NCBI GenBank assembly: GCA_016926155.1
Contig: JAFGPC010000105.1
Location: 1-36,671, forward strand
Origin: Sedimentisphaerales bacterium
GTDB lineage: Bacteria; Planctomycetota; Phycisphaerae; Sedimentisphaerales; Anaerohalosphaeraceae
DNA: 36,671 bases
Direction of reading: 5' to 3'
A model generated the notes under the pieces. That model had not been told where the DNA came from and did no database searches. It worked only from the letters and a program-made list of their open reading frames with translations. Numbering within the stretch: position 1 is the stretch's first letter; each line of letters opens with the position of its first letter. Positions 3,198 to 32,807 of this stretch are shown piece after piece. A program made the translations under genes and the position numbers.

Positions 3198-3447
3198 TCC
3201 AAAACGCGAAAACACAAAACTTGTCTGAAATCTCAAACTTATATCCCCCTGCTTTACAAGTCCCCCTAAAACCTGTTTATATTACCATTCATCGGTAGGA
3301 GGTTGAAAATTCGTCTTTATAATGCTAATATGGTCAAGTCTTTCCGGATTGGTTTCCATTATGGTTTTTTTTTACGGCTACGATACATAGAAAATGTAAC
3401 TATCGGAATGGACACGGTTGCATATCAATAAAACAGGAGGCTTTTTT
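3198..3447. other. Intergenic region before the peptidase-GH172 gene
   Basis: This stretch lies between divergent genes. It holds a TATAAT at about 3316-3321 with no matching -35, a T-run at 3364-3373, and AGGAGG at about 3435-3440 that serves the gene starting at 3448. I see no confident plus-strand promoter and no convincing RNA structure. Confidence 0.4.
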
Positions 3448-5970
3448 ATGAGAGAAAAATGTTTGTCTCTAATTTCGTATCGAAAGCTGACTGGCCTGGT
3501 ATTGCCAATCTGCATGATTTTAGGCCAATGTGCCTTTTCCGCCGCACCATTCGATATTTCGCAACAAAATGGTTCGACTGCATTCAATATTAACCTTCGT
3601 CAGACCCTCGAGACATGGGAACTCAAACCACGTTTGCAGGGTGGCCGGGGGACTTGCTCTGTGTTTACCGTTGCCGGCGCCCTGGAATATGCACTGGCCC
3701 ATAAGACAGGCCAGGGAACACCGTTAAGCGTCGAGTTCCTCAATTGGGCTTCGAACCAAACACTGCAGAAAATGGAGGACGGCAGTTTTTTCTCAGATCT
3801 CTGGAATGGATTTACGACTTACGGAGTCTGCCCCGAGCAGGATATGCCCTATCAGAATACGTTTGATCCAAAACGAACTCCAAGCCAGGAGGCCAGAGAA
3901 CACGCACTGGAACTACTTAAAGCAGGATTTCGATTGCAATGGATCAAGCCATGGAATCCGAACACCGGATTGACGGAAGAACAATTAAGCACCATCAAGC
4001 GGGTGTTATATCAAAAGTGGCCGGTCTGTGGTGGATTTCGCTGGCCCAAAAAACCAGTGAAATACAATCATAATATTCTTATCATGCCCCCGCCGGAAGG
4101 AGTCATCGACGGGCACAGTGTCTTGATTGTCGGATATCAAGACGATCCGAACCAACCCGGTGGAGGTTTGTTCCTGTTCCGTAATTCCAACAACGAGGGA
4201 CACTACGGCTATATGACCTATCAATACGCCTGTGCATATATGAACGATGCCGTATGGATTAATTATGAAACAGAGAATGCTCAACAACTCGCTTCTCCAA
4301 CGATTACCGACATACTCGGTCCGTTCGGTTTTTCACCCAAGGGGCGAAATCGTCGTATCTCAAGCAATCAGCAGCCGGACTGGCACAGTGAAAACCTCGA
4401 CATGAACTGGCTTATGCCCGGCGAATCGGTCAATATGCCCATGCTTGAAGGTCCGGGAGTAATCAATCACATCTGGTTTACGAGTCATTCCGGCTGGGTA
4501 TCGGAATTGAATTCTCTGAGCCTGCGTATTTATTATGATGACAACAAGGAGCCTGGCGTTGAAGCCCCTGTGGGCGATTTTTTCGCTGTGGGGCACGGAA
4601 AACCAGCCGTTGTAAACAGTATTCCTGTCCAGGTTTCGCCTACCGGATCATTAACCTGTTACTGGCGGATGCCTTTCCGTAAAAATGCCCGAATCGTGGT
4701 TACTAATGACAATCCGGACCGCTCGACCGGCTTGTATTGGCAAGTCGATTGGCTGCAACTGGAAGACCTTCCGCTCGACACCCCTTACTTCTACGCCCGT
4801 TATCGTCAGGAATACCCGGCCGTCGAAGGATGCGATTATTTGATCGCCGACCTCAAAGGTAGCGGCTTCTTCGTAGGTACCGTAATGTCCATAACGCTGG
4901 GTCAGAACGGCTGGTTCGGAGAGGGCGACGACTTCTTTTATATCGACGGGGAGACAATCCCCAGTTTGCAGGGAACCGGCAGCGAAGACTATTTTAACGA
5001 TGCCTGGGGATTTCGAACCCGAACCAGCGCATGGTTCGGCCAGCCTTACTGGCAGGGCTACACCGCCGGTGATAGCGGTGTATGTTATCGTTGGCATCTA
5101 CTTGATCCGGTGCACTTTACTCGGTCGCTCAAAGTTGAAATCGAACATCGAGGAAACTGTAACCAGGCGGAAAACGGTTTCTATCTCGAGCGCTCCGATT
5201 TTCTCAGCAGCGTGGCATTTTGGTATCAAACCGGAACACCGGAAACCATGTTTTCTCCATTGCCGTCCTGGCACCAGCGCTGCGTTCCCTGGCGGCAATA
5301 CCATCTCGTCAAAACATATCGCCATGCAAAAACAACAGGCCCGGCCAAGCTACAAGTGCAGACCCAGGGATTTTTCGGGGCTCGACCTATCCTGCTCTGG
5401 CCCAATGATGGACCGCGTGCAGCACTCACTTTACCGTTTGAACTATCTCAGGAGGGACGATATGCCATTCGTCTAACCGCCGCTAATGGTCCCGCGTATG
5501 GAATGTACGATGTGGAGATCGATGGCAAAAAAGTTCTTACGGCGGATTTCCGTACTCCGGACGAGGCCGAGGCCGACCTGGTACTGGGAATCCATGAAAT
5601 GAAACAAGGCAACCACACCATCGCCTTTCGCGCAGTGGACGACGCTCAAAAAGTCGGGCCGCTTGGTGTCGAAATCCTGCGCTTATTAAAACTTCCGCCT
5701 GAAGCCGAACGGATCGAAAAAACACACCACGAAGCTCATTTCATCCGTCTGGGAATCGGTCGAGCCGTCTATGCATATCGATTGGCCTTTGATACTCTCC
5801 CCGATACTCTCGAAACTTTAGTCAACAAAGGTTTTATGCCTGACCGGTATTTACGAGATGAAAATAATCTTCCATTGAAGTCATGGCGGCAGAACGATAC
5901 GATCTTTGTAGAAAGCACCGGTAAAGACCACTGGAAACATAGTTGGAAAGGTTTGGATCCTCGGCGGTAA
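3448..5970 (+). CDS. Secreted papain-like cysteine peptidase fused to GH172 (DUF2961) domain
   Basis: This 840-residue exported protein has two enzyme-like parts. A signal peptide covers about residues 1-32 (hydrophobic TGLVLPICMILGQCAF, then SAA). Residues 45-285 look like a C1A papain-type peptidase: Q64 and C70 in QGGRGTC have the oxyanion-Gln to catalytic-Cys spacing, H223 is in DGHSVLIVGY, and N246 is in FRNSNN. Residues about 290-600 match DUF2961/GH172, with GEGDDFFYIDGE (491-502) and GTGSEDYF (509-516). Glu492 and Glu513 are 21 residues apart, the spacing I recall for the catalytic pair Glu270/Glu291 of the GH172 founder. A beta-rich carbohydrate-binding-like region follows (about 660-755), then an 80-residue tail. 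The ATG at 3448 is preferred over the TTG at 3418 because of AGGAGG seven bases before it. The gene is monocistronic. Both domains are well supported; the substrate is unknown. Confidence 0.87.
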   Translation: MREKCLSLISYRKLTGLVLPICMILGQCAFSAAPFDISQQNGSTAFNINLRQTLETWELKPRLQGGRGTCSVFTVAGALEYALAHKTGQGTPLSVEFLNWASNQTLQKMEDGSFFSDLWNGFTTYGVCPEQDMPYQNTFDPKRTPSQEAREHALELLKAGFRLQWIKPWNPNTGLTEEQLSTIKRVLYQKWPVCGGFRWPKKPVKYNHNILIMPPPEGVIDGHSVLIVGYQDDPNQPGGGLFLFRNSNNEGHYGYMTYQYACAYMNDAVWINYETENAQQLASPTITDILGPFGFSPKGRNRRISSNQQPDWHSENLDMNWLMPGESVNMPMLEGPGVINHIWFTSHSGWVSELNSLSLRIYYDDNKEPGVEAPVGDFFAVGHGKPAVVNSIPVQVSPTGSLTCYWRMPFRKNARIVVTNDNPDRSTGLYWQVDWLQLEDLPLDTPYFYARYRQEYPAVEGCDYLIADLKGSGFFVGTVMSITLGQNGWFGEGDDFFYIDGETIPSLQGTGSEDYFNDAWGFRTRTSAWFGQPYWQGYTAGDSGVCYRWHLLDPVHFTRSLKVEIEHRGNCNQAENGFYLERSDFLSSVAFWYQTGTPETMFSPLPSWHQRCVPWRQYHLVKTYRHAKTTGPAKLQVQTQGFFGARPILLWPNDGPRAALTLPFELSQEGRYAIRLTAANGPAYGMYDVEIDGKKVLTADFRTPDEAEADLVLGIHEMKQGNHTIAFRAVDDAQKVGPLGVEILRLLKLPPEAERIEKTHHEAHFIRLGIGRAVYAYRLAFDTLPDTLETLVNKGFMPDRYLRDENNLPLKSWRQNDTIFVESTGKDHWKHSWKGLDPRR

Positions 5971-6878: not shown

Positions 6879-9242
6879 TTATCCATTCCTATTATCATTC
6901 GTTCCGCCGGCAATCGGTTCCAACTCATTCCATCTCTTTGTATCAATCACATCGGGCAACTCCAGACGCCGAAGGGCGGCACGACGAATACGTCGCTGAC
7001 GGATCTGCTCGACTCGTTCCTCACGCTGTTCGATAAGTCCATTCATCTCTTCCCGTGTCAGATAGTATATGCCTTCTCCCAATTCCCATCGCAAAGCCAG
7101 CTCTTGCAGAACAATTCGAATCAGTTCATATCCCATCATCCAGTAATGCCTGCCTACTTTCTGACAGGGTAACAAAGTCTGGGCTACGGCCAGATCCCGC
7201 TCAATCGATTCCTGAAACATTGTTCCACCCCAACACTGCAGGTGACTGAACAAATCCTCCTGTGCCTGTTGACGCTGATGTCGAAGCTCCCGATAAATGT
7301 CTAATGAAGAATGGGAGTTATTTTGTATTTGAGCAATCCTGCCCATCAAAGAGGAGGGATCTTCGCGCCAACGGGGTGTGGACAATTCCAATTCTCCCTG
7401 CACCCGATGGCCATATTCTTCCAGAAAACTGTTCAGACTTGCTTGTCCGCGAGCAACCGTATGAAGTTTCTGTTCCTGAGCATACCCGATGTCACCGTCC
7501 AGCCCACTGGTCAACATCACGGCATAATCCCGGCCATGCTGCGACCCCATCAATTGAACCAGAATCTTCTGCAGGGAAGCAAACACAGCCTGTCCTACAA
7601 ATCCCGGCAAAAGCACCTCCGGTCCAAATTCTTCCAGCACCGTCCGGCAGCGGCCATCCAGTTCCAATAGTAACTGCTCTTCGCTGAATCCGGACAAATC
7701 CTGCTCGCGTTTCTTATATACCCACGCCAAAAAGACCGGCAACACTTCATGATCAAATCGTTGTTTTGCCACCTTCCGAAATCGCTTCATCGTGCGTGAT
7801 ATACGCCGTCGCGTTAATAGAACACCCGGCAAATGAGATAAAAAAAGCCATCCGATTCGCTCCCGATCCAACCGATCCGGGGCTCGATCCATTACACTTC
7901 GATCTTGAATCACTTTATCGAGGTCATACACGTACGGAAAACACTCTCCAAACAAACCTGCCAGCCGATCCGGTTCGGCATAAATCCGCCCTCCCATCAA
8001 CTCCAGGAAGCTTTTCTCGCAACGTCGCCGGGATGGCCGGTACCCCAGCATCCGAATCATCCGTCTTAATCCGCCATTCCCACTCATAAATCCGCACACA
8101 AGGTCCCATGTCAGCGGCGTTGGATAACGCAGGTCTTCATCTAGGCCGGACAGTACCCAGGTCCGTTCCTCCTCTGTTACCAGTGTATCGATCCGCTCTA
8201 TCTCTTCAAATCGGATCGTTTCCATCTCGTAAGCGCCTTCCAGGCCGTCTATCTTATGCTCCTGAAAAAAGACGAACCGGTCGTCTACATACCCGAATTC
8301 AATCTCAACTGGATGCCCGAAAAGCATTTCCGTCTTCAAAGCCAGTTGTGCCAGTTCCCGAACTTGTTCCTCCGTCAATCCTGGCTTACAAGATTCATCA
8401 CCTTCGGTATTCCCTTTTGATGAAGGAATTTGAACTGAGACTGACAATCGTTCCCGATCCACCAGAAACAGATACGACATCCCATGGCAGGGCTCATATC
8501 CAAACGTACACTCAATTCGCATCTGTTCGGCAAAAGCATCCTTCGGATCCTGCGTAAAGATCTTCCCCGAGACTTTCGGTGAAAGCTCCTGCTGCACATA
8601 GACCACTGCACCGCCGGATGATTCCAAATCCGAAGATTGGAACATGGCGATGATACACTGCTTTAACTGGTCAAACGGCCGAGTGGGAAATTTATGACCG
8701 GTCCGTTTCTTATAGAAGGCAAGGTATTTATCCACCAATTTCCGACCTACTCTTTCCGGCGGATATTTGTCCAATCCCGCTTCAACAAAATCCGTATCCG
8801 TCAATCCCTTAACCAATCCGGCAAAGGCGCGAATAAATTGCAAGGTCGCATGACAGAAGTCCGTTTCATCCTCCATAAGATCCGCCAGATCCGGACCAAG
8901 TCCACAATGAGATAACGTACACTCCTCCTCAGTCATACTACTACTGACAGACAACAAGAGAGGATGATGGCCTTTTCCATATTTCCCCCCTGTTTCTTTC
9001 TCCAAACGGCGCAGATACTTTTGGATTTGCTTGCTCAACTCCGCTGGCCATTTACCCCCTTGCTCCAAAAACGCTCGACGCGCTTCAGAGGTAATAAGAA
9101 AACCGGGTGGTACTGGCAGGTCGGCTTTCGCCAGTTTGCTAAGTGCAGCACCTTTCTCACCAAACTGGCCGCACAGTTGCTCAGGTTCTTCTGTACGTCC
9201 CGCCTCCAAAAAAGAATACACCCATTGGCCGAGCTTTTTCAT
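6879..9242 (-). CDS. PEP-synthase/rifampicin-phosphotransferase-like protein lacking the phosphohistidine domain
   Basis: The first 350 residues follow the ATP-grasp domain of pyruvate phosphate dikinase/PEP synthase: FGEKGAALSKL (Lys30), LPVPPGFLITSEA, YVQQELSPKVSGKIFTQDP, and PVEIEFGYVDDRFVFFQEH as the metal/ATP-binding end. The family's VSVRSG motif, with its phosphate-binding arginine, reads LSVSSS here (serine at about residue 100). Residues 370-770 resemble the helical linker of rifampicin phosphotransferase-type enzymes (YPTPLTWDLV, GRHYWMMGYELIR, GIYYLTREEM). The protein then ends in a basic tail at 787. The C-terminal swivelling domain with the catalytic histidine, which would normally follow, is absent. 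It overlaps the upstream gene by four bases (ATGA) and is probably cytoplasmic. It may bind ATP without classical phosphotransfer. The fold is secure; the function is unknown. Confidence 0.85.
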   Translation of the reverse strand: MKKLGQWVYSFLEAGRTEEPEQLCGQFGEKGAALSKLAKADLPVPPGFLITSEARRAFLEQGGKWPAELSKQIQKYLRRLEKETGGKYGKGHHPLLLSVSSSMTEEECTLSHCGLGPDLADLMEDETDFCHATLQFIRAFAGLVKGLTDTDFVEAGLDKYPPERVGRKLVDKYLAFYKKRTGHKFPTRPFDQLKQCIIAMFQSSDLESSGGAVVYVQQELSPKVSGKIFTQDPKDAFAEQMRIECTFGYEPCHGMSYLFLVDRERLSVSVQIPSSKGNTEGDESCKPGLTEEQVRELAQLALKTEMLFGHPVEIEFGYVDDRFVFFQEHKIDGLEGAYEMETIRFEEIERIDTLVTEEERTWVLSGLDEDLRYPTPLTWDLVCGFMSGNGGLRRMIRMLGYRPSRRRCEKSFLELMGGRIYAEPDRLAGLFGECFPYVYDLDKVIQDRSVMDRAPDRLDRERIGWLFLSHLPGVLLTRRRISRTMKRFRKVAKQRFDHEVLPVFLAWVYKKREQDLSGFSEEQLLLELDGRCRTVLEEFGPEVLLPGFVGQAVFASLQKILVQLMGSQHGRDYAVMLTSGLDGDIGYAQEQKLHTVARGQASLNSFLEEYGHRVQGELELSTPRWREDPSSLMGRIAQIQNNSHSSLDIYRELRHQRQQAQEDLFSHLQCWGGTMFQESIERDLAVAQTLLPCQKVGRHYWMMGYELIRIVLQELALRWELGEGIYYLTREEMNGLIEQREERVEQIRQRRIRRAALRRLELPDVIDTKRWNELEPIAGGTNDNRNG

Positions 9243-14299: not shown

Positions 14300-15697
14300 T
14301 CAGGACTCGGCCGTCTGGGTTTGTCGGAACTGGGGCATGTACTTATCGATCAGCTTCGGATCGACTCGCTTGAGTTCACTGTCCTCAAACATGCTCAGCA
14401 ACTTCCATCCCAGATCCAGCGTATCGAACACGCTGCGGTTTTCATAATACCCCTGCGAGATATATTTGGCTTCAAATTCGTTGGCGTACTTCATATACTT
14501 CTGGTCCTCGGCGGATAAGGCCGCTTCACCCAGGATCGTCGCCAGTTCCTGCGCCTCTTTCCCGCGGGCATAGGCCGCATACAATTGGTTATACAGGTCC
14601 GCATGGTCTTCCCGTGTCTTGCCCGAGCCGATTCCCTTGTCCTTCAATCGTGACAGGCTCGGCAGCACATCCACCGGTGGGGCTACCGCTTTACGGTGCA
14701 GCGCCCGGCTCATGATGATCTGCCCCTCGGTAATATACCCGGTCAGGTCCGGCACCGGGTGGGTCTTATCGTCTTCCGGCATGGTCAGCACCGGCACCTG
14801 CGTGATTGATCCCTTGCGGCCCTTTACACGCCCCGCACGTTCATAAATCGTCGCCAAGTCGGTATACAGATATCCTGGATATCCTCGCCGACCGGGCACT
14901 TCCTTACGAGCGGCGCTGATCTGACGCAGTGCTTCGCAATAGTTGGTCATATCGTTGAGAATCACCAGAACGTGCATGTTTTCTTCAAAAGCCAGATACT
15001 CGGCTGCAGTCAGGGCCACACGGGGAGTCGCGATTCGCTCAATCGCCGGATCATTGGCCAGATTGATAAACAACACCGCTCGCTCAATCGCGCCGGTATT
15101 GGTCAGGTCGTTGATAAAGAACTGGGCCGCTTCGAAGGTGATGCCCATCGCCGCGAACACCACGGCAAACGCCTCGCCCTCGCCCAGCACCGTTGCCTGG
15201 CGAGCAAGTTGTGCGGTGATGTCGTCGTGTGGAAGACCCGAACCGGAAAAGATCGGCAGCTTCTGTCCGCGCACCAGGGGGTTTAAGCCGTCAATCGTGC
15301 TGATTCCCGTCTGAATAAACTCGTTCGGATAATCGCGGGCATACGGATTGATTGGATTGCCGTTGATGTTAAGCCGCTTTTGGGGGATGATGGCGGGCCC
15401 ATCGTCCTTGGGACGACCGGTCCCGTCGAACACCCGCCCCAGAATCTCCGGCGACACACCCAGTTCCATCGGCTTACCCAGAAACCGTACGGTGCTGTTG
15501 TCCACATCAATCCCTTCGGTGCCTTCAAAAACCTGTACGAGGACTTTATCCGCCTCGACCTGCAGGATTTGTCCGTGCCGCGTGGAGCCGTCGGCAATTT
15601 CAATATCGACGATCTGCCCGTACTTGGCCCCTTCGACACCCTCTACAAGCATCAGCGGCCCGGCAATCTCCGTCACTGTGCGATACTCTTTCAGCAT
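14300..15697 (-). CDS. atpB: V-type ATPase subunit B (non-catalytic head subunit)
   Basis: Subunit B alternates with subunit A in the V1 hexamer and completes the nucleotide site without turning over ATP itself. The 465-residue length is normal. The N-terminal beta barrel ([20 protein letters not shown]), the region [18 protein letters not shown] in place of a classical P-loop, and [20 protein letters not shown] with the arginine that reaches the neighbouring A site are all visible. The C-terminal helical part ([20 protein letters not shown] and following) fits the family. It lies 49 bases after the subunit A stop in the same operon. Identification is secure. Confidence 0.96.
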
Positions 15698-15746
15698 CTT
15701 ACACTCCCGTATTCACATTCGGTTTTACCCGATTTGGACAGTCACC

Positions 15747-17519
15747 TTATGCGACTGCACTGCATTGTTTCACTTGCTCATCAATCGTTTTGCGAATGTC
15801 TACGACCTGCTGCAGGTCCTTTTCTTCCACAAATTTAGCTCGGGCGATATCGGTTCGCACGGCCAGTTTTGTGATCTCGCCGATCTCCACACCCTGCTCA
15901 ATCGCCTCCAGAGCCTTGTTATGGAAGTGCAGGATCACCTTGAGCATCTCAAACTGCTTGTCGATACTCGTGTGTGTATCCACTTTATGGAAAGCATTCT
16001 GGTGCAGGAAGTCCTCGCGGATGCTCTTGGACGTCTCCAGCGTAATACGGTCTTTCGCCGAGATCGATTCGGCGCCGACCAGACGCACGATCTCGATCAA
16101 CTGCGATTCCTGCTCCAGGAGGTTCATGGCCTCCTGGCTCATCTCGGCCATCTCTTCGCCGCGTTCCTTGTCCTCAAAACATCCGGACAGATACTGCTTA
16201 TAGAACGAATAACTTGTCAACCAGTCAATCGCCGGGAAGTGACGCTGCTGGGCCAGCCGACCCTGCAGGGACCAGAACACCTTCACCACATGCAGCGTCG
16301 CCTGCACTACCGAATCGGACAGATCGCCGCCGGGTGGGCTGACAGCACCGATAATCGACAGTGCCCCCTCGCGGTTCGGACCGCCCTTGCAGATCACCTT
16401 GCCGGCCCGTTCATAGAAGGATGCAATCCGTGCCCCTAGGTAGGCCGGATACCCTTCTTCGGCGGGCATTTCTTCCAGTCGTGTCGAAATCTCGCGCATC
16501 GCCTCGGCCCATCGGCTGGTACTATCGGCCATCATCGCCACCGAATACCCCATGTCACGGAAATATTCGGCCAGCGTGATACCCGTATACACCGACGCTT
16601 CACGGGCCGCCACCGGCATATCCGACGTATTGGCCAGAAGCACTACACGTTTCATCAACGGCTCGCCGCTGTGCGGGTCCACCAGTTCCGGGAACTCCCG
16701 CAGTACATCCGTCATCTCATTACCCCGTTCCCCGCATCCGACATATACTACCACGTCGGCATTAACCCACTTGGCAAGCTGATGTTGTACGACTGTTTTA
16801 CCGGTTCCAAACGGACCGGGCACACAAGCGGTTCCCCCCTTGGCAATCGGGAAGAATGCATCCACTACTCGTTGGCCTGTCGTCAATACTTCATCCGGCG
16901 CCAGACGACGCGTTACGGGGCGTGGGGTTCGCACCGGCCATTTCTGCATGAGCTTCAATTCCGTCCGTTTGCCTTCGTCGTCGGTTACCGTCCCGATCAC
17001 CTCGTCCACGGTATAATCACCTTCGCCGAGTCCGTCCAGCTTACCGCTGACACGCGGGGGAATCATGATCTTATGCAGCATCAGGGTCGTTTCCTGCACT
17101 TCACCGAGAATGTCGCCCGGTCCCACATCCGTCCCATTGTCTATCTTGGGCACGAAATGCCACTTCTTTTCCCGATCCAGGCCGGGAATATCGGCGCCGC
17201 GTTTGATGAAGTCGCCCTGCTGCTCGACCAGTCGGTCCAGGGGACGCTGGATGCCGTCATAAATACTTTCGATCAGTCCCGGCCCCAGTTCCACGCTAAG
17301 GGGCGCACCGGTATTAACCACCTGCTCTCCGGGTCCGATCCCTACAGTGTCTTCGTAGACCTGGATACTGGCCTTGTCGCCGTGTAGTTCAACGATCTCA
17401 CCGATGAGGTTCTCGCTGCCCACACGGACCACATCGTACATGCGGGCGCCGGTCATACCCTCGGCCACAACCACCGGCCCGGCCACCTTGATGATCCTGC
17501 CGTTACTCGTTTCACTCAT
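15747..17519 (-). CDS. atpA: V-type ATPase subunit A (catalytic)
   Basis: This is the ATP-hydrolysing or ATP-forming subunit of V1. The 590-residue length includes the bulge domain (about residues 115-185) that separates V/A-type A subunits from F-type beta subunits. The P-loop GPFGTGKT is at residues 235-242; many relatives have GPFGSGKT, so the Thr is a mild variation. The segment [20 protein letters not shown] with the catalytic glutamate, and [20 protein letters not shown] with the Walker B region, are both intact. The gap of about 108 bases before it, after subunit F, is the largest in the operon and holds no gene. Identification is secure. Confidence 0.97.
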
Positions 17520-17627
17520 CTCTCAAGACCTTCTCAATATTTTGTTTTACGCTTTTTTTCACTACTTCAAGCGGCGATCTTTTGTGTCTTCATCGCAGCA
17601 TCCACATAGACAGAGCCCGTATCTGCG

Positions 17628-17948
17628 CTAACTTTCCAGAATATTAATTCCCGTCGCCAGCTTGAGCGCTTTACCCAACGTCTCGCCGGCATACCCGCTC
17701 GACTCGCTTAAAAACGGAACCACCACCACACACGGCGACGGCTTTCTCTGAATCGGCTCAAACGCCTCTTGCGCCATCGGAGCGATATTTTCGGCGACCA
17801 CAACCAGCGAATAATGGCTGTCTACAATTTCACGAGCGGCCTGATCAACCTGTTCACGCACAGCTTCCACAGGAAACGTATCAAGCCCAAGTGCGGAAAA
17901 GGCCATCGTAAAATCAGCGCCACCAAGTACAGCCACTTTACCCTGCAT
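17628..17948 (-). CDS. atpF: V-type ATPase subunit F (rotor accessory)
   Basis: The 106-residue Rossmann-like subunit binds the shaft subunit D and helps regulate rotation. The pattern VAVLGGADFTMAFSALGL at the N-terminus, YSLVVVAENIA in the middle and CVVVVPFLSESSGYAGETLG near the C-terminus is typical. Its place between subunits C and A matches the operon order I recall for Thermus thermophilus. It starts 24 bases after the subunit C stop. Confidence 0.93.
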   Translation of the reverse strand: MQGKVAVLGGADFTMAFSALGLDTFPVEAVREQVDQAAREIVDSHYSLVVVAENIAPMAQEAFEPIQRKPSPCVVVVPFLSESSGYAGETLGKALKLATGINILES

Positions 17949-17972
17949 TAACTCTCTCCGAATCCCTTGGTC

Positions 17973-19007
17973 TTATTCGCCAAGCCGATCCAGGATCAGC
18001 TTCGCGTCCATCCCGTTGTTCTTGGCCGACAACAACATTCGAACCATTCGTATTTCATTTTCTTTCAGAAGCAGATAGGCAATGATCGGTTGAGGTCCGG
18101 CCGTAATGGATCGTGTCGTCCGCAGAAAACCGAACAGATATTCCTCACACAACCGCTCCAGCCGTAGGAAGGACTGCTCGGTTGTAAAGTACGCTACGCC
18201 TCCTTCCACCACCTCATAATAAGGCGTCGCAAAAAATAACGGCGCCAATCCCTCATAACCCAGGTCCAGCCCATGCACCAGCCGCTCAATTTCCACGAAT
18301 CCGCCCGGTAGGAACAGGTCCCGCTCATCCCGTTCGGCCGCCTTAAGACGAAGCAGCGTGCGGATATTCGTCAAATCAATCCGCACACGGTAAAAACTCA
18401 ATAAAAATACACTGCCCAGTTCCTCGGATGTGCGAATACGATATTTCGCTTCGCAGCGGTCTATCGCATAATCAACGGACCGGATGTCCTTATTCTCATA
18501 ATATGCCAGCACCGCTTCTTCGATGGCTTCCTGCAGATACATCGGAAATCGACTGTAATTTTCCTGCTCAAAGGCCTCTTCAAACTCCTCCGCAGGCACC
18601 GATCCGAAATCGCTGTAGTCCAATCCGATCGGCCGGTCCGTCACGACCCGGCGAATCGCCAAACGCATGTTGGCAAAATCATGCCGTGCCCGTAATAACT
18701 CGACCAATTCCGGATCCTGCATCAGGGCAATAAACAACGTACGCAGCTCATGACGCCGCTGCAGTAACAATTCCTCTATCTGGGCAAAGCTTTCCACCGC
18801 ACCGCCGGCCGAATATTCCGTGCTGCTCAACAGATCCATCGCCGCCGAAAAGCTTTCAGCGTTGGCCAGATCCAACAGCGTCGCCCGCGAAAGCATCGTC
18901 GTCTCCAGACAACGAATCTTGCCCGTCGCAAATCCATAGCGCCAGTCGTCGGTCCCGATGGGCGGATACCGATGGAAATCGATTACAGCCTGTTGCACCG
19001 TGGCCAT
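17973..19007 (-). CDS. atpC: V-type ATPase subunit C (d-type funnel subunit)
   Basis: Subunit C (d in eukaryotes) is the funnel-shaped helical protein linking the V1 shaft to the membrane K ring. The 344 residues are nearly all helical. Motifs such as WRYGFATGKIRCLETTMLSR, YYENKDIRSVDYAIDRC, FLLSFYRVRIDLTNIRTLLR and PIIAYLLLKENEIRMVRMLL are characteristic of the family (vATP-synt_AC39). It starts three bases after the subunit E stop, indicating tight coupling. Confidence 0.95.
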   Translation of the reverse strand: MATVQQAVIDFHRYPPIGTDDWRYGFATGKIRCLETTMLSRATLLDLANAESFSAAMDLLSSTEYSAGGAVESFAQIEELLLQRRHELRTLFIALMQDPELVELLRARHDFANMRLAIRRVVTDRPIGLDYSDFGSVPAEEFEEAFEQENYSRFPMYLQEAIEEAVLAYYENKDIRSVDYAIDRCEAKYRIRTSEELGSVFLLSFYRVRIDLTNIRTLLRLKAAERDERDLFLPGGFVEIERLVHGLDLGYEGLAPLFFATPYYEVVEGGVAYFTTEQSFLRLERLCEEYLFGFLRTTRSITAGPQPIIAYLLLKENEIRMVRMLLSAKNNGMDAKLILDRLGE

Positions 19008-19010
19008 CGT

Positions 19011-19619
19011 TTACTCTTGTCCCTGCTCATCGCCAAACAACATCTGTGCCAGTTCCGTCTCCAATTCCTGACGAATCTGCCCGACCAGCACTTCGGTGCT
19101 GACATTGATTCGGATATTGCCGCGCCGCAGGATGAAACCTCCACGAATGTCGGTACGCTCTGAGGCCAGTTGCAGATTACCCTTGAATCCCGGACCCAAC
19201 TGGCGATTGACCGTCTTGATCACGCGATCATTGATCCGCATCTCTTTCTTACCGACAAGGATCTGTTCATCCCCGGTTTCTACGGCGTTAGCCATCAAAG
19301 CTGCCATCAAGGCCTGATAATCCTCTTCCGGCAGCGAATTGATTCGGTCAATCGCTTTTTCGAATATCTCGTCAAGCAACTCCACCTGAACGAACAGATA
19401 TTGCTTGCGATTGTCCATGCGGGCCGCGGCCAGCATACGGGCTTTTTTGTCCTCGGCCGCCTCTTTGGCCAGACGCAGCGTTTCTTTTTCAAAAGCATCC
19501 AGCTCCGTTTGCAAACGGGAGGCGCCCTCGTCGGCCTTGCCATGGGCTTCGGAGCGAATCGTTTCGGCTTGTCCATTCGCTTCGGCGAGAATCTTGTCTA
19601 CTACCTGTTCGGCATTCAT
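19011..19619 (-). CDS. atpE: V-type ATPase subunit E (peripheral stalk)
   Basis: Subunit E pairs with subunit H (also called G) to form the peripheral stalks that hold the head still. The 202-residue protein has a long N-terminal helix rich in Ala, Glu, Lys and Arg (about residues 1-75) and a C-terminal globular part. The globular part contains DIRGGFILRRGNIRINVSTE, the family's conserved GG-x-x-L segment. GGGAAAG precedes the ATG. The next gene in the operon, subunit C, follows almost immediately. Confidence 0.93.
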   Translation of the reverse strand: MNAEQVVDKILAEANGQAETIRSEAHGKADEGASRLQTELDAFEKETLRLAKEAAEDKKARMLAAARMDNRKQYLFVQVELLDEIFEKAIDRINSLPEEDYQALMAALMANAVETGDEQILVGKKEMRINDRVIKTVNRQLGPGFKGNLQLASERTDIRGGFILRRGNIRINVSTEVLVGQIRQELETELAQMLFGDEQGQE

Positions 19620-19668
19620 ATTACTTTCCCGTTACGACAGGTGAACGTTTCTGATTCGATTCGCTTTG

Positions 19669-20175
<507 letters not shown>

Positions 20176-20205
20176 CTATTGGTGACTTTTTCTTCGAATT
20201 TTCAA

Positions 20206-22155
20206 TCACTCTTCTACTTGTATGTGGTTGTATTGCTTTCGTAGCGGCTCAAAGTCTTTGCCGCCGCCGATCACGAACTTGGTGAAAAACTCCACAAACT
20301 GCAAACGCATGCTGTGCACAAAGGCGCTCAGCATGGAATTGGCGATATTAAACAGGTGTCCCCCGACAAAGATCAATCCACCCAGCAGCCAGCCGACATA
20401 CGGCATTTCTCCAACCTGCTTGCTGATCACGTTAATCGCCATCCCGAAGCCGCCGGTTACCATCCCCAGCGCCATCAGACGGATATAACTGAGTACATCC
20501 CCCACGTAAAACACAGTACTGAACAGATTATAACAGCCCATGCCGACCCGAGCGCCCCAGCCGCCTTCCCGCTCACTGAACAGCAGGATACCGATACCCG
20601 GCACAACCGCAACGAGTCCTGCTACTGTGGCCGTCCAGGACGGCAGCACTCCAGTCTTGCCCAAACCAAACAAAGCCAGCGAATTAAGCCAGACAAACCA
20701 GGTTCCGTGGTCCCAGATTGCCTCCTGCACCCTGCCGGAACGGAATTTATTCCAGAATCCGACTCCGATCCCAAAGATAATCTGCAGATAACCCAACACC
20801 AGTGAAAGCACAAAGAAATGCATGGGTTTGACAAACGGATCGAACCACATGATCGACTCACGGAACGAAGAAAGAGAGGGCACAAAAATCTGGATCGCAT
20901 CGGCACACCAGCCGCCGGTTAATGCTCCGGCAACCACCGTCACAATCGAGCAATAAAGCATCATCTTGATGAATTTGGCATCCCCTTTGATCTTTTTCAG
21001 GAGCCACCACATGATCCCGATCATCACCAGTCCGTAGGCCGCATCGGTCAGGCAAATACCGAAAAACAACGCAAAAAAGGGCGCCAGAAACACCGTCGGG
21101 TCCGCATCCGTCGGATGCGGCATCCCATACAGCCGGGTAATCGACTCGAACGGACGCACGACGCCGGAATTCTCGATCTCTACCGGACGAACCTCCCCCC
21201 GCCCAGCCTCAATTCGTCCCACGTTCGCCGCATCGAATCGACCGACAATCTGTTCCAGCTTCGAAAAATCGTGTTCTTTGACCCAGCCTTCCAGCAGAAT
21301 CACGCTTTCAGTCGCCGGCGAGGTCATCCGTGTCTGTTCCCGGTGGAGAAGATTTCCGTAATGGTCTGACAGGATCTGTAAGGTTAAAAGTTGCTTGGCC
21401 ATCTCTCTGGCCCGGCCTTCTGCCTTGCTCCAGTCACTCCGAGCGTTCTCCAGTCGCGACTGGTACTCCGAGATCAGTTCCGAAACCGTCCCGGTCATCC
21501 CCTCAAAATTGACGCTCTCAAAATCCCCGCTTCGCAGGATCTTCTGTACCTCGCCTGCATTTTCCTTAAGGCATACAATGATGCACGCATGCATTGTGCC
21601 CGTAGCGCCGACTTCCTGGATCGCCGCTCCGAATTCGGATAGCTTTTCACAGATCTCTTTATAATGCTGATAAGGAACCAGACCCACAAGACAACTGGCC
21701 CGCTGCAACTGGCGGATCTCTTCCACTGGTGTCTGCAGAGACTTCCACGGTTTGAGCATCTCCAGTGTGCCGCCAACATTCTCACACTGGTTGCACAGCT
21801 TTTCCATCTCGGACTGGGTCTTCTCGGCGGCTTCCAGCAAATCAATCGCTTCAGCCCCGGAAATTGCCCTGGAATACTCGCTCCGGTTCACAGGTTGCAG
21901 TGGCTCAAAAATGCTTCGTTTGTCCTGCGAATATTGTCCCAGAAATGCCACGGCCTTTTCCAGCCGGTGATTGGTCTCCTCCAGATCCCGCGGACGACGG
22001 CCTTCGATCTGCAATTCCGGCCACTCTTTCGAGATCATAGCCCGCTCGGCATCGAGCAATTCTACGATCCCCGCCGCCTGCAGAGCCTCCAATAACTCCA
22101 CCGCTTGGCTGCGATGAGCGGCAATCATTACCTTTGTCATTTTAGCAATGGCCAT
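20206..22155 (-). CDS. atpI: V-type ATPase subunit I (membrane stator, a-type)
   Basis: Subunit I is the stator that forms the two ion half-channels against the K ring. The 649-residue protein has a soluble N-terminal half (about 1-330) with coiled coils and a membrane half with seven or eight helices. Diagnostic motifs are FFALFFGICLTDAAYG, DVLSYIRLMALGM with the essential channel arginine, and FVHSMRLQFVEFFTKFVIGG near the end. The start at 22155 gives MAIAKMTKVMIAAH, which fits the usual N-terminal strand; the internal ATG five codons later is an alternative. Identification is secure. Confidence 0.96.
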   Translation of the reverse strand: MAIAKMTKVMIAAHRSQAVELLEALQAAGIVELLDAERAMISKEWPELQIEGRRPRDLEETNHRLEKAVAFLGQYSQDKRSIFEPLQPVNRSEYSRAISGAEAIDLLEAAEKTQSEMEKLCNQCENVGGTLEMLKPWKSLQTPVEEIRQLQRASCLVGLVPYQHYKEICEKLSEFGAAIQEVGATGTMHACIIVCLKENAGEVQKILRSGDFESVNFEGMTGTVSELISEYQSRLENARSDWSKAEGRAREMAKQLLTLQILSDHYGNLLHREQTRMTSPATESVILLEGWVKEHDFSKLEQIVGRFDAANVGRIEAGRGEVRPVEIENSGVVRPFESITRLYGMPHPTDADPTVFLAPFFALFFGICLTDAAYGLVMIGIMWWLLKKIKGDAKFIKMMLYCSIVTVVAGALTGGWCADAIQIFVPSLSSFRESIMWFDPFVKPMHFFVLSLVLGYLQIIFGIGVGFWNKFRSGRVQEAIWDHGTWFVWLNSLALFGLGKTGVLPSWTATVAGLVAVVPGIGILLFSEREGGWGARVGMGCYNLFSTVFYVGDVLSYIRLMALGMVTGGFGMAINVISKQVGEMPYVGWLLGGLIFVGGHLFNIANSMLSAFVHSMRLQFVEFFTKFVIGGGKDFEPLRKQYNHIQVEE

Positions 22156-28979: not shown

Positions 28980-31900
28980 CTAGGGAACCTGCTGGAGCCA
29001 CTGTGCGGCAAAGATTGCCAGGTCTTCCAGGTCCACCTTGCCGTCGCAGTTCAAGTCCGCACTGCGGCAGCAGAATGCTTCTGAGGTAATCGCAAAAGCC
29101 ATGTCAATGGAATTGGATCCTACATTATCAATCGCAAACTCCTGTCCGCCAATATAGAATTGATGAATATCTCCATACAGCCGGAGAATTCCGGTTTCAT
29201 TACCGGCGCCACCAGTCACGGAAACCTGTACCCCTCCAATGACCTGTCCATCAATATCCTGGAAGTTGGCAAAGTTACGATGATCTCCATTAATGTTGAT
29301 ATTGCAATTGCCGCCATACTCCCCGAATAACAGTTGCAGGCCTGGTAATACTTCAGGGAACTGGAATTCAAGGTTGACATTATTGACAATCATCTCTTGA
29401 CCGCTACCGCCAGCCAACAGACCATTGCCTACCTGGGTGTAGCCCTGACTCGTCCATGTTCCATTGGAGAATTCAAACGACTGTACCAGAATTGGAACAC
29501 CTGCACTGACAAACATATCACCTACATGATAATACGTACCAAGCGTTAAGTCTTCAAACATCACACCATGATACGGATGCGTGGGTGGGTAACGCAACTC
29601 TTTCCAGAGTCTCGGAAGCTCGCTTCCCATGTCGAAAACAGCATCATCGTTAAAATGTTCCGGCCAGCGTCGAGTCTTCCATCCAAACGTGTAGCCCTCC
29701 GGCACATCAACCTGCACATCCAGCCAGTACACAATGGGTTTCTCTCGGGAACCCTCCTGCAGGAACGGCTCTTTCTCGGGCGGAATCTGGATATCAATCC
29801 GCCAGACCTCCGTGTCTCCGCCGGGAATCAACTCTTCATTCACAATATCCCACCAATATTCGCCACCTTCTACTTTGGCCGCCAACTTCATGTCAAATTC
29901 ACCGGGCAGGAAGTCTCCTTCCCAGAGCAGTTTGGCCGGTTTGGAATAGGTGTTGTCCGGATCCGGCCCTTCCTCTCCCACCGGATCATCACTGTGAATG
30001 CTTAAATGAATCTTTTCAATAACCGGCGGTTCATCGAGGATCTTATCCTTAAACTTGCTGCCCCACAGATGCACGTCAGTAATATGGCCGGTCTCAGTGC
30101 AAAGGAAGTCATCCGCCATCCACCGGAGCCTGCCGTCACTATTGTCGACACGGATGTCAATTCCTCCGGGTGTCAGATCGGGACGCTGAACCCATTTGAT
30201 CCCGCAGTTGTTGCCGATCTTGACACGGTAGTCCTCCACCTCACCGTTAGCCGCATCGCCCGCAAAACCGAGGTTGATGTCGGGATCGCGAATAAATCGG
30301 AATCGTGCAAAAGTCGTACAGTTGGGTTTGGCTGTCATTGGCACGTTGAACACCAGCACGTTCGATCCTGCACCGAGCAACTGGCCGCTGAAGATTTGAT
30401 CACCAACCTCAGCCCATGAACCATCAGCGTTAAAATCAATCCAGGCGAAGAGACTTCCTGCTACTGATGCGGTTACTTCGATCTTGGCAGGTCGTCCGGG
30501 CACCAGCGGCCAGGTATTGAACACCACTCCGTCTTCGTCATCGTTGCCGTCGTTGTCGTCACCGGTTGCAGTAGCATTCGGCTGACCATCCCGTTCGGGA
30601 TCAATTCCGACACCAAGGAAAATATTGGAATCGATCAGGTGACTCGCCCCACTATTGATTTTAAGTGTGGGATAGCCTCCGGCTGCAGTTAAGCCATCAG
30701 GAGCATCACCCCAGTCCCGATCCGGAATTTCCTCGATCTCAACCAGGTAATCCTCCACCTCGCCAAAAGGCCCTGCTCCGTCATAAGACAATCCGGCAGC
30801 CGTACTAAAACGAAAACGGGCATAAGTCGGACCGGCAACAGCGCCGGCAGGCACCGTAAAGGGTAAAATATTTGCCCCGGACGTCACCGGTACATCTGTC
30901 ATCACCTGTTCCCCGGCATCGGCCCAGTCGCCGTCGGCATTGTAATCGATCCAGCACTGCAATAAGCCCTGCACGCTGGCTATTACCGTGACTTGGGCAT
31001 TTGCTCCGGCAATCAAAGGCGTATCAAACGTTACACCATCTTCATCATCGTTACCGTCATTATCGTCACCATCGGCATTGGCGGTCGGCTGTCCATTAGG
31101 TTCGGGATCAACGCTGGCGCCCAAAACTATGTTCGGTGAAAAGAGGTGTCGTGCACCATTGCTGGCCAGCGTTGTCGGATAACTCGGTGGTAATCCGGTC
31201 GGATCTTCCGGCGCATCACCAAAATCCATGTCCGGTCCCGGAGGTGCATCGATAAGATAGTCTTCCGTCTCACCATACCGATATCCTCGCGGTGGCCCCG
31301 AGCCTCCAAAACCGGCTGCTCCGGCAGTCACTTGCCATGGCTGTTCCGCAAGAGTGATCCGCATCCACATATGATCTATAGGCAAATCAACTGGCCCGAG
31401 AGGCCAGGTGGCAGGAAACGAGGATGTTGTCAACGTATACGTACCCGCTCCAGGAATCTGAACCAGATCGTTCTGCACAGCCCATTCCGGAACTGATGTC
31501 CCATCCGGACACGTCAGTGTGTCATCCCAATCGCCGTCCATGTTCCAATCAAACCAAACGTTGACATACATGAGTCGAAGTATCGGATTATTCACTGTCA
31601 CGATATATTGAAAACGATTCGACTGACACCACTGTAGATTCAATGGGAACAGCACACCGTCATCAAACTGGTCCAGGTCAGGCTGATCCTGTGGCGGAAT
31701 GATATTGTTCACTCCATCCTGATCCGGCCCGATATCCGCTTCCATTTCCATACTTACTTGTGGGCCAAGCCAAGCAAGATCACGAGGACGCCAATGGATC
31801 GGGCCGTGAGGCGGCGAACCCATTTGGTACACTGTCGGGAAGTTGGCCAGAACCTGCAAAGGTCCGCCGGGAGGATAGGCCGTCATTGGCGCAATGCCCC

Positions 31901-32807
31901 ATGAATTCGACGTATCCGGAGCATCTCCCAGATCGGCATGATGCCCCTCATGCATATGCCAGATCCAGCGAAACTCCGGCTCACCTGCATTGTTTTCGTT
32001 CTCTACGCCGACACGAGATATGAGCACATCACCGGGATCAATCGGCATGGCCTCGGTTGTATGAAAACCCTGATCGGGTAGTTCGACCTCAACAAAGACG
32101 TCAAAAAAGCTATCAGGGGGAAATTCTTGAGGATTATTGGGACTGACCAAGATGCCCTGGGGATCTTCAACGCCAATCCATTTAAAGCCTTCCTGTTGAC
32201 CTTCACGTCGGAGCATAGCAGCCAGTTCCTGCATACCTCCCATCTGGTCAACCTGTTCCGCTGTAAACTTGGTCAGCTGCAGCTCAGTAATCCGGGCGGG
32301 CGTCTGCATATGCGAATCGTTCCGCACACGGAAAAACTGCGGACGTTCCAATGGAATATCCTCAACTTCAAAACCGGGAATCAACACCGTACCATCATTA
32401 AGACCTCCGCGGATAGGTACACCATCCCTTGTCCACCAGCCGACCAGGTCGATCACCAGATTGCTGCATTCCAGATCGAAGAACAGCCCCAGATGCAGCC
32501 AGTCGCAGTACTTAAACTCCGCGCCCCAGAAATCAATACGGAATATATACCATCGCCCGTCCGGATCGGCCGGATCGGGTTCGAACACCGTAGTGGGATC
32601 GCTATACATCGGAAAGTCCGAGATCACCTGTACCAGTTCGGGTGGGGAGCTTGATTCCACCCTGCCCTCAATATGGAAATCATTAGCCGGCAGGTCTATG
32701 ACCTCCGGAGGGATATCCATGTGGACATCCACATTGAAACCCGCGATCAAAGCCCACGCAGGCGAGCACACAATCGCTATTCCAAACAGAATAAGTGTCT
32801 TTCTCAT
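28980..32807 (-). CDS. Large secreted GEVED-domain protein with dockerin-like tail
   Basis: The 1275-residue protein begins with a signal peptide (MRKTLILFGIAIVCSPAWA). Three related modules each open with D-x-G-D-A-P-D or -E. The first runs from about 287 to 515 and ends in the variant GETEDYLID. The second runs from about 526 to 690 (GEVEDYLVEI) and the third from 696 to 862 (GEVEDYRVKI). Modules two and three share DGNDDEDG acidic loops and WIDYNADGDW/WIDFNADGSW, so they are duplicates and likely bind calcium. A region at about 865-1065 resembles secreted modules common in Phycisphaerae, then a beta-rich stretch, then a single dockerin-like half repeat, DLNCDGKVDLEDLAIFAAQW, at the end. 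GGGAGG precedes the ATG. It is probably a surface or matrix protein; no enzyme motif is visible. Confidence 0.9.
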   Translation of the reverse strand: MRKTLILFGIAIVCSPAWALIAGFNVDVHMDIPPEVIDLPANDFHIEGRVESSSPPELVQVISDFPMYSDPTTVFEPDPADPDGRWYIFRIDFWGAEFKYCDWLHLGLFFDLECSNLVIDLVGWWTRDGVPIRGGLNDGTVLIPGFEVEDIPLERPQFFRVRNDSHMQTPARITELQLTKFTAEQVDQMGGMQELAAMLRREGQQEGFKWIGVEDPQGILVSPNNPQEFPPDSFFDVFVEVELPDQGFHTTEAMPIDPGDVLISRVGVENENNAGEPEFRWIWHMHEGHHADLGDAPDTSNSWGIAPMTAYPPGGPLQVLANFPTVYQMGSPPHGPIHWRPRDLAWLGPQVSMEMEADIGPDQDGVNNIIPPQDQPDLDQFDDGVLFPLNLQWCQSNRFQYIVTVNNPILRLMYVNVWFDWNMDGDWDDTLTCPDGTSVPEWAVQNDLVQIPGAGTYTLTTSSFPATWPLGPVDLPIDHMWMRITLAEQPWQVTAGAAGFGGSGPPRGYRYGETEDYLIDAPPGPDMDFGDAPEDPTGLPPSYPTTLASNGARHLFSPNIVLGASVDPEPNGQPTANADGDDNDGNDDEDGVTFDTPLIAGANAQVTVIASVQGLLQCWIDYNADGDWADAGEQVMTDVPVTSGANILPFTVPAGAVAGPTYARFRFSTAAGLSYDGAGPFGEVEDYLVEIEEIPDRDWGDAPDGLTAAGGYPTLKINSGASHLIDSNIFLGVGIDPERDGQPNATATGDDNDGNDDEDGVVFNTWPLVPGRPAKIEVTASVAGSLFAWIDFNADGSWAEVGDQIFSGQLLGAGSNVLVFNVPMTAKPNCTTFARFRFIRDPDINLGFAGDAANGEVEDYRVKIGNNCGIKWVQRPDLTPGGIDIRVDNSDGRLRWMADDFLCTETGHITDVHLWGSKFKDKILDEPPVIEKIHLSIHSDDPVGEEGPDPDNTYSKPAKLLWEGDFLPGEFDMKLAAKVEGGEYWWDIVNEELIPGGDTEVWRIDIQIPPEKEPFLQEGSREKPIVYWLDVQVDVPEGYTFGWKTRRWPEHFNDDAVFDMGSELPRLWKELRYPPTHPYHGVMFEDLTLGTYYHVGDMFVSAGVPILVQSFEFSNGTWTSQGYTQVGNGLLAGGSGQEMIVNNVNLEFQFPEVLPGLQLLFGEYGGNCNININGDHRNFANFQDIDGQVIGGVQVSVTGGAGNETGILRLYGDIHQFYIGGQEFAIDNVGSNSIDMAFAITSEAFCCRSADLNCDGKVDLEDLAIFAAQWLQQVP

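Follow-up and report, generated by a model that had tools for sequence, protein, structure and literature searches.

In the window analysed here, a stretch of 36,671 nucleotides from the genome of a Sedimentisphaerales bacterium, direct reading of the sequence located an open reading frame (3448-5970, ATG at 3448) whose 840-residue product joins a papain-type cysteine peptidase module to a GH172 (DUF2961) domain (Table 1). The initial annotation had proposed that these two enzymes lie in one exported chain, which is borne out by Pfam, by the structural models and by fused orthologues, and the six residues it had listed as catalytic (Q64, C70, H223, N246, E492, and E513) are found exactly where it had placed them. 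A chimera, a frame error or a sequencing artefact is ruled out, because the same fusion occurs in orthologues from other genera of the order (63-75% identity). The search of NCBIfam with the fusion protein assigned no family, and the Pfam scan of the tail (residues 756-840), which also closes the split GH172 proteins described below, gave no match; for the C-terminus, the Pfam scan returned CBM_35 (E 0.098) and CE2_N, both below threshold. No glycan-utilisation cluster was found around the gene within the window, and the neighbouring genes give no functional hint.

Table 1. Features of the peptidase-GH172 gene, with positions in the window.
Feature	Position	Strand	Evidence
Peptidase-GH172 fusion gene, 840 residues	3448..5970 (stop codon included)	+	Fused orthologues
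Ribosome-binding site AGGAGG, 7 bases 5' of the ATG	3435..3440	+	Direct sequence reading
Predicted Sec signal peptide, residues ~1-32 (KLTGLVLPICMILGQCAFSA)	3448..3543	+	Translation
Papain-fold (C1A) peptidase module, residues 44-275	3577..4272	+	PF00112; model pLDDT 93; xylellain Z 23.0
Gln64, oxyanion-hole residue	3637..3639	+	78/78 modules (partly pattern-selected); 28/28 fusions
Cys70, nucleophile	3655..3657	+	78/78 modules (partly pattern-selected); 28/28 fusions
His223, catalytic base	4114..4116	+	78/78 modules; 28/28 fusions
Asn246, third triad residue	4183..4185	+	Asn in 67/78 and Asp in 11/78 modules; 28/28 fusions
Linker, residues 276-298	4273..4341	+	Alignment of fusions with split genes
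GH172 (DUF2961) double jelly-roll domain, residues ~299-606	4342..5265	+	PF11175; phmmer; Foldseek
Glu492, equivalent of the acid/base Glu270 of alphaFFase1	4921..4923	+	Alignment; 35/35 fused and split members
Glu513, equivalent of the nucleophile Glu291 of alphaFFase1	4984..4986	+	Alignment; 35/35 fused and split members
C-terminal beta-rich region, residues ~636-750, jelly roll of probable carbohydrate-binding type (weak assignment)	5353..5697	+	All-beta in model
Conserved C-terminal tail, residues 756-840, mark of the fusion's GH172 clade	5713..5967	+	Alignment of 28 fusions

The peptidase half matches Peptidase_C1 (PF00112) over residues 62-259 with 25.6 bits against a cut-off of 20.7, and several relatives score just under that cut-off. 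We built a model of the module with 78 relatives (mean pLDDT 93), and in structure searches it retrieved cathepsins and xylellain with E values of ~1e-12 to 1e-11, xylellain being the best structural match (Z 23.0; cathepsin S, Z 21.6; superpositions over ~210 residues). With Z scores of 21-23 against xylellain and the cathepsins, the modelled N-terminal half has the papain-like fold on which the initial annotation had made its reading depend. The papain fold and the catalytic residues are common to the module and to bacterial C1A enzymes such as xylellain (3ois) and Lpg2622 (6a0n), but identity to these is ~22% and their solved chains carry no glycoside hydrolase fusion. All four active-site residues are unchanged in every aligned fusion, and across modules from all contexts the catalytic His is invariant while the third position is held by Asn or Asp (Table 1). 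The presence of Gln and Cys in all 78 modules is partly pre-selected, because both residues were part of one of the two patterns used for searching; they are also kept in the modules recovered by the pattern-free profile search. Only ~12 residues separate the predicted signal peptide from the start of the module. Inhibitory propeptides are not universal among bacterial members of the papain family.

The GH172 half is matched by DUF2961 (PF11175) over residues 355-594 with 243.8 bits (cut-off 27), and phmmer related it to alphaFFase1 of Bifidobacterium dentium (7v1v, 9.4e-50) as well as to 4kq7, 8ah3, and 8ic8. The same four entries led the Foldseek matches of the full-length model (8ah3 with 6.7e-22, 7v1v, 4kq7, and 8ic8; E ~1e-19 to 1e-22), and cathepsins ranked second, after the GH172 entries. 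This model has a pLDDT of 74.5, its least confident part being that around the active site of GH172. In known GH172 members the active site sits between subunits. Glu492 and Glu513, which the initial annotation had named as 21 residues apart, align with the catalytic glutamates E270 and E291 of alphaFFase1, and together with D514 they are unchanged in 28 of 28 aligned fusions. The -1 subsite of alphaFFase1 consists of Tyr187', Trp267, Glu270, Glu291, Asp292, and Trp298 (PMC8605356); the aligned residues here are Y430, W489, E492, E513, D514, and W520, Y430 being the counterpart of Tyr187', which lies at the subunit interface. Calcium is bound in alphaFFase1 by Asn31', Asp33', and Asn272, which correspond to N316, D318, and D494 (Asn272 appearing as Asp), and the -1 subsite and calcium-site residues are kept in all 35 fused and split members. 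The fold, the glutamates 21 apart, and the -1 subsite and calcium-site residues are likewise common to DgGH172c (8ah3) and the exo-alpha-D-arabinofuranosidase 8ic8. Unlike these GH172 enzymes, the present protein carries a peptidase as well as an extra C-terminal jelly-roll region and tail. It also departs from alphaFFase1 in that the stretch bearing the +1-subsite residues Glu85' and Lys147' has no counterpart in the alignment with the GH172 half, for which a role as a difructose dianhydride I enzyme is therefore improbable. The substrates of characterised GH172 members are alpha-D-fructofuranosides and alpha-D-arabinofuranosides (PMC8605356, PMC10115798). Judged by their conserved residues, both halves are likely to be catalytically competent.

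We then considered how widely the two domains are coupled. Scanning genome contigs with the peptidase module yielded 80 named loci, and in 31 of them a GH172 domain lies in the same frame (as it does in one more, L111, across an assembly gap); in 10 further loci the peptidase gene is directly adjoined by a GH172 gene of like orientation. These numbers stand although GH172 accounts for only eleven loci in the organism's own 5-Mb genome. About half of the modules in the contig scan have no GH172 neighbour. Among neighbouring families, GH172 is the sole one to be met widely next to the module, the other recurring families being present in 2-4 loci only. The fusion is carried mostly by Planctomycetota, the remaining carriers being MAGs labelled Verrucomicrobiota, Lentisphaerota, and Omnitrophota (labels that may be wrong). 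An apparent natural split in G023 (UBA7708) was rejected, since an assembly gap of Ns lies inside the gene. As the contig scan had started from the peptidase, a query with GH172 alone was run as a control. Among 161 genomes of the order, the GH172 subfamily of the fusion (at least 67% identity) has 13 members and all 13 are fused; the least certain frame among them was checked, and in another the sole break is a gap in the assembly. Across 392 genomes of the phylum, the subfamily was found only in the organism's own genome, the next matches reaching at most 53% identity. No subfamily member unlinked to the peptidase was found in these searches, which covered the order well and the phylum thinly, and this GH172 clade appears to be tied to the peptidase.

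In a quick GH172 tree, computed without bootstrap, all fusions but one form a single clade (support 100), and a subclade inside it is formed by split pairs from Armatimonadota and Poribacteria, in which the same two halves are encoded by neighbouring genes. The exception, L100, carries a distantly related type of GH172, and the adjacent GH172 genes of L145/L163, L113/L124, and L172 fall in other GH172 clades, such adjacency being seen in Verrucomicrobiota, Planctomycetota, and Bacteroidota. As these couplings lie outside the main GH172 clade, the peptidase has been coupled to GH172 several times. The partnership of peptidase and GH172 proves to be old and conserved across several phyla, with all catalytic residues kept.

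Other enzymes have been joined to the same module. GH127 is a family named after arabinofuranosidase activity. In two planctomycete MAGs the module is fused to GH127 with DUF4986 and DUF6805 (L079 and L080, = L147 and L149), and in both the triad Asn is an Asp. Fusions of the FGE-sulfatase type (L082, L083, and L167) use a shorter form of the module without the RWP segment, which is N-terminal in two and C-terminal in one. The module is also fused to DUF4838 (L088, a long frame whose gene start is taken as read), to an M14 zinc carboxypeptidase of a Bacteroidota MAG (L170:4776-7412), and, in a MAG labelled Akkermansia muciniphila, it follows a C25 (gingipain-type) peptidase in one long frame, the start again as read (L158:3405-5681). 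In L042, L081, L084, and L085 it is accompanied only by a carbohydrate-binding-like tail. A second copy of the module with 62% identity is present in the organism's own genome (L041, G000:C16:368-1054); it has ~120 extra residues before the module, and its locus is cut by the contig end.

The split pairs are informative about the boundary between the two enzymes. In Armatimonadota and Poribacteria the GH172 gene starts exactly at the linker position of the fusion, and the C-terminal part of the linker (ITDILGPFGFSPK) aligns with the N-termini of the split GH172 genes. The peptidase-side half of the linker has no conserved motif in the alignment of fused and split forms, and the length of the linker is variable. 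By hydropathy scan, 29 of the 31 fusion loci scored have a hydrophobic N-terminal stretch, L135 and L150 being weak. Of the six split pairs that belong to this clade, GH172 has no signal peptide in any, and the partner peptidase has none in three (L151, L157, and L164), because of which export cannot be a general part of the model that we propose, nor can joint action outside the cell apply to every pair.

The architecture as such is not new, as the pairing is listed once in a published survey, which names the cysteine peptidase PF00112 as one of the enzymatic domains that accompany DUF2961 (Krupovic et al., 2022; PMC8812541). The fusions of that survey hold the same Pfam pair in one chain as here, but the pair is a single item of a list, given without residues, taxa, linkage or function. 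The view in the initial annotation that GH172 enzymes are not joined to a cysteine peptidase is therefore contradicted, both by this survey and by at least 31 further fusions. In the open-licence literature, we found no paper on the residues, distribution, coupling or function of the fusion beyond that line, and the text of a 2023 study of the papain family does not mention DUF2961 (PMC10380794). What is new here, beyond the published listing, is the apparent tie of a GH172 clade to the peptidase.

Our preferred reading, to which we would give slightly less than an even chance, is that the product is an exported two-enzyme protein whose targets are glycoproteins or glycopeptides decorated with furanose. 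In it, the papain-type domain would cut the polypeptide, and the GH172 domain, probably as a trimer with the active site at the subunit interface, would remove terminal furanosyl residues (arabinofuranose-like) that otherwise shield the chain; glycan binding may be aided by the jelly-roll region. Furanosylated glycoproteins as substrates would best explain why the module repeatedly meets furanosidases and, elsewhere, other peptidases. GH127 includes beta-L-arabinofuranosidases, some of which are active on hydroxyproline-rich glycoproteins (PMC10850190, PMC6085000). In favour of this reading we counted the invariant active sites, the coupling in 13 of 13 subfamily members, the recurrent pairing, and the signal-like N-termini; against it we counted the signal peptides missing from the split pairs, the absent glycan cluster, the modules without a GH172 neighbour (about half), and the fusion of some modules to non-furanosidase domains (FGE-type and DUF4838). 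The idea of a glycoprotein substrate, one of the suggestions of the initial annotation, is strengthened by the independent GH172 couplings and by the GH127, M14, and C25 fusions. The organism itself has a strong furanosidase repertoire, with about ten GH127 loci besides those of GH172; when D-arabinan was considered as a hypothesis, DUF4185/GH183 gave one weak match in this genome against the ~10 GH127 loci.

The alternative that fares best, although we hold it to be unlikely, is that the papain-type domain matures or releases its own protein or surface proteins, while GH172 acts independently on a polysaccharide. The model for such a role is Cwp84 of Clostridioides difficile (4ci7), which the full-length model retrieved as one of its structural matches and which is likewise an exported papain-type peptidase with a carbohydrate-binding-like partner; that partner, however, is a lectin-like domain and not a glycosidase, and Cwp84 processes the S-layer protein (PMC4089489). 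The related modules that bear only a carbohydrate-binding-like tail fit such processing, and the separate chains of the split pairs are what self-cleavage would yield. Nevertheless, the linker varies in length and has no conserved motif on the peptidase side, the module begins soon after the predicted signal peptide with no propeptide apparent, and the repeated pairing with furanosidases is unexplained by self-cleavage. Self-maturation of the sugar enzyme, which the initial annotation had offered as its second option, is accordingly not favoured, given the missing linker motif and the encoding of the split form by two genes, whereas a Cwp84-like processing is possible.

It is more doubtful still that the papain-like domain has ceased to act as a peptidase and instead binds, targets or makes a transpeptidation bond, leaving GH172 as the only catalyst. 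Such a role would suit a module that is shuffled as an N-terminal unit before many unrelated enzymes, in the manner of targeting modules, and the modest Pfam score (25.6 bits) and the Asp for Asn in 11 of 78 modules point the same way; yet Cys, His, and Gln are present in every module, including those found by the pattern-free profile, the papain fold is near-complete (Z 21-23), and a domain that only binds would not retain the triad. Equally doubtful is a coupling through shared regulation only, with both enzymes acting on different molecules of the same biomass: the differing apparent export signals of the split pairs and the varied partners (FGE-type, DUF4838, M14, and C25) would agree with it, but regulation alone does not need a single polypeptide, and the fused state is kept across MAGs of Planctomycetota, Verrucomicrobiota, and Lentisphaerota.

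If, as in the glycoprotein reading that we prefer, both halves act on one substrate, the fusion would be a defined enzyme, amenable to testing, for furanosylated glycoproteins, and would hint at the role of the many uncharacterised planctomycete GH172 paralogues. Tests are feasible, since the fusion is present in a cultured strain, Aquisphaera insulae JC669 (L126). A broader proposal, which we regard as rather unlikely to hold, is that the dedicated GH172 clade descends as the sugar half of a glycoprotein-degrading machine, its protein half being a reusable papain-type module that has been attached repeatedly to furanosidases (GH172 types and GH127) in bacteria of several phyla. Were this true, sediments, soils, and digesters would contain a class of furanose-capped glycoproteins as yet undescribed as a substrate. 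That one peptidase module is paired with both GH172 and GH127 offers a functional lead, which annotation of single domains overlooks.

Elsewhere in the window, on the reverse strand, the genes at 14300-22155 form an A/V-type ATP synthase operon (subunits A, B, C, E, and I) and are not F-type genes. The region 6879-9242 (reverse strand) encodes a protein with N-terminal ATP-grasp pieces of the PPDK/PEP-synthase type and a distant C-terminal PEP-synthase-like stretch, all far below the family cut-offs. At 28980-32807, also on the reverse strand, a protein of 1275 residues with three GEVED domains and DUF7901 is encoded, which is probably a large surface protein.
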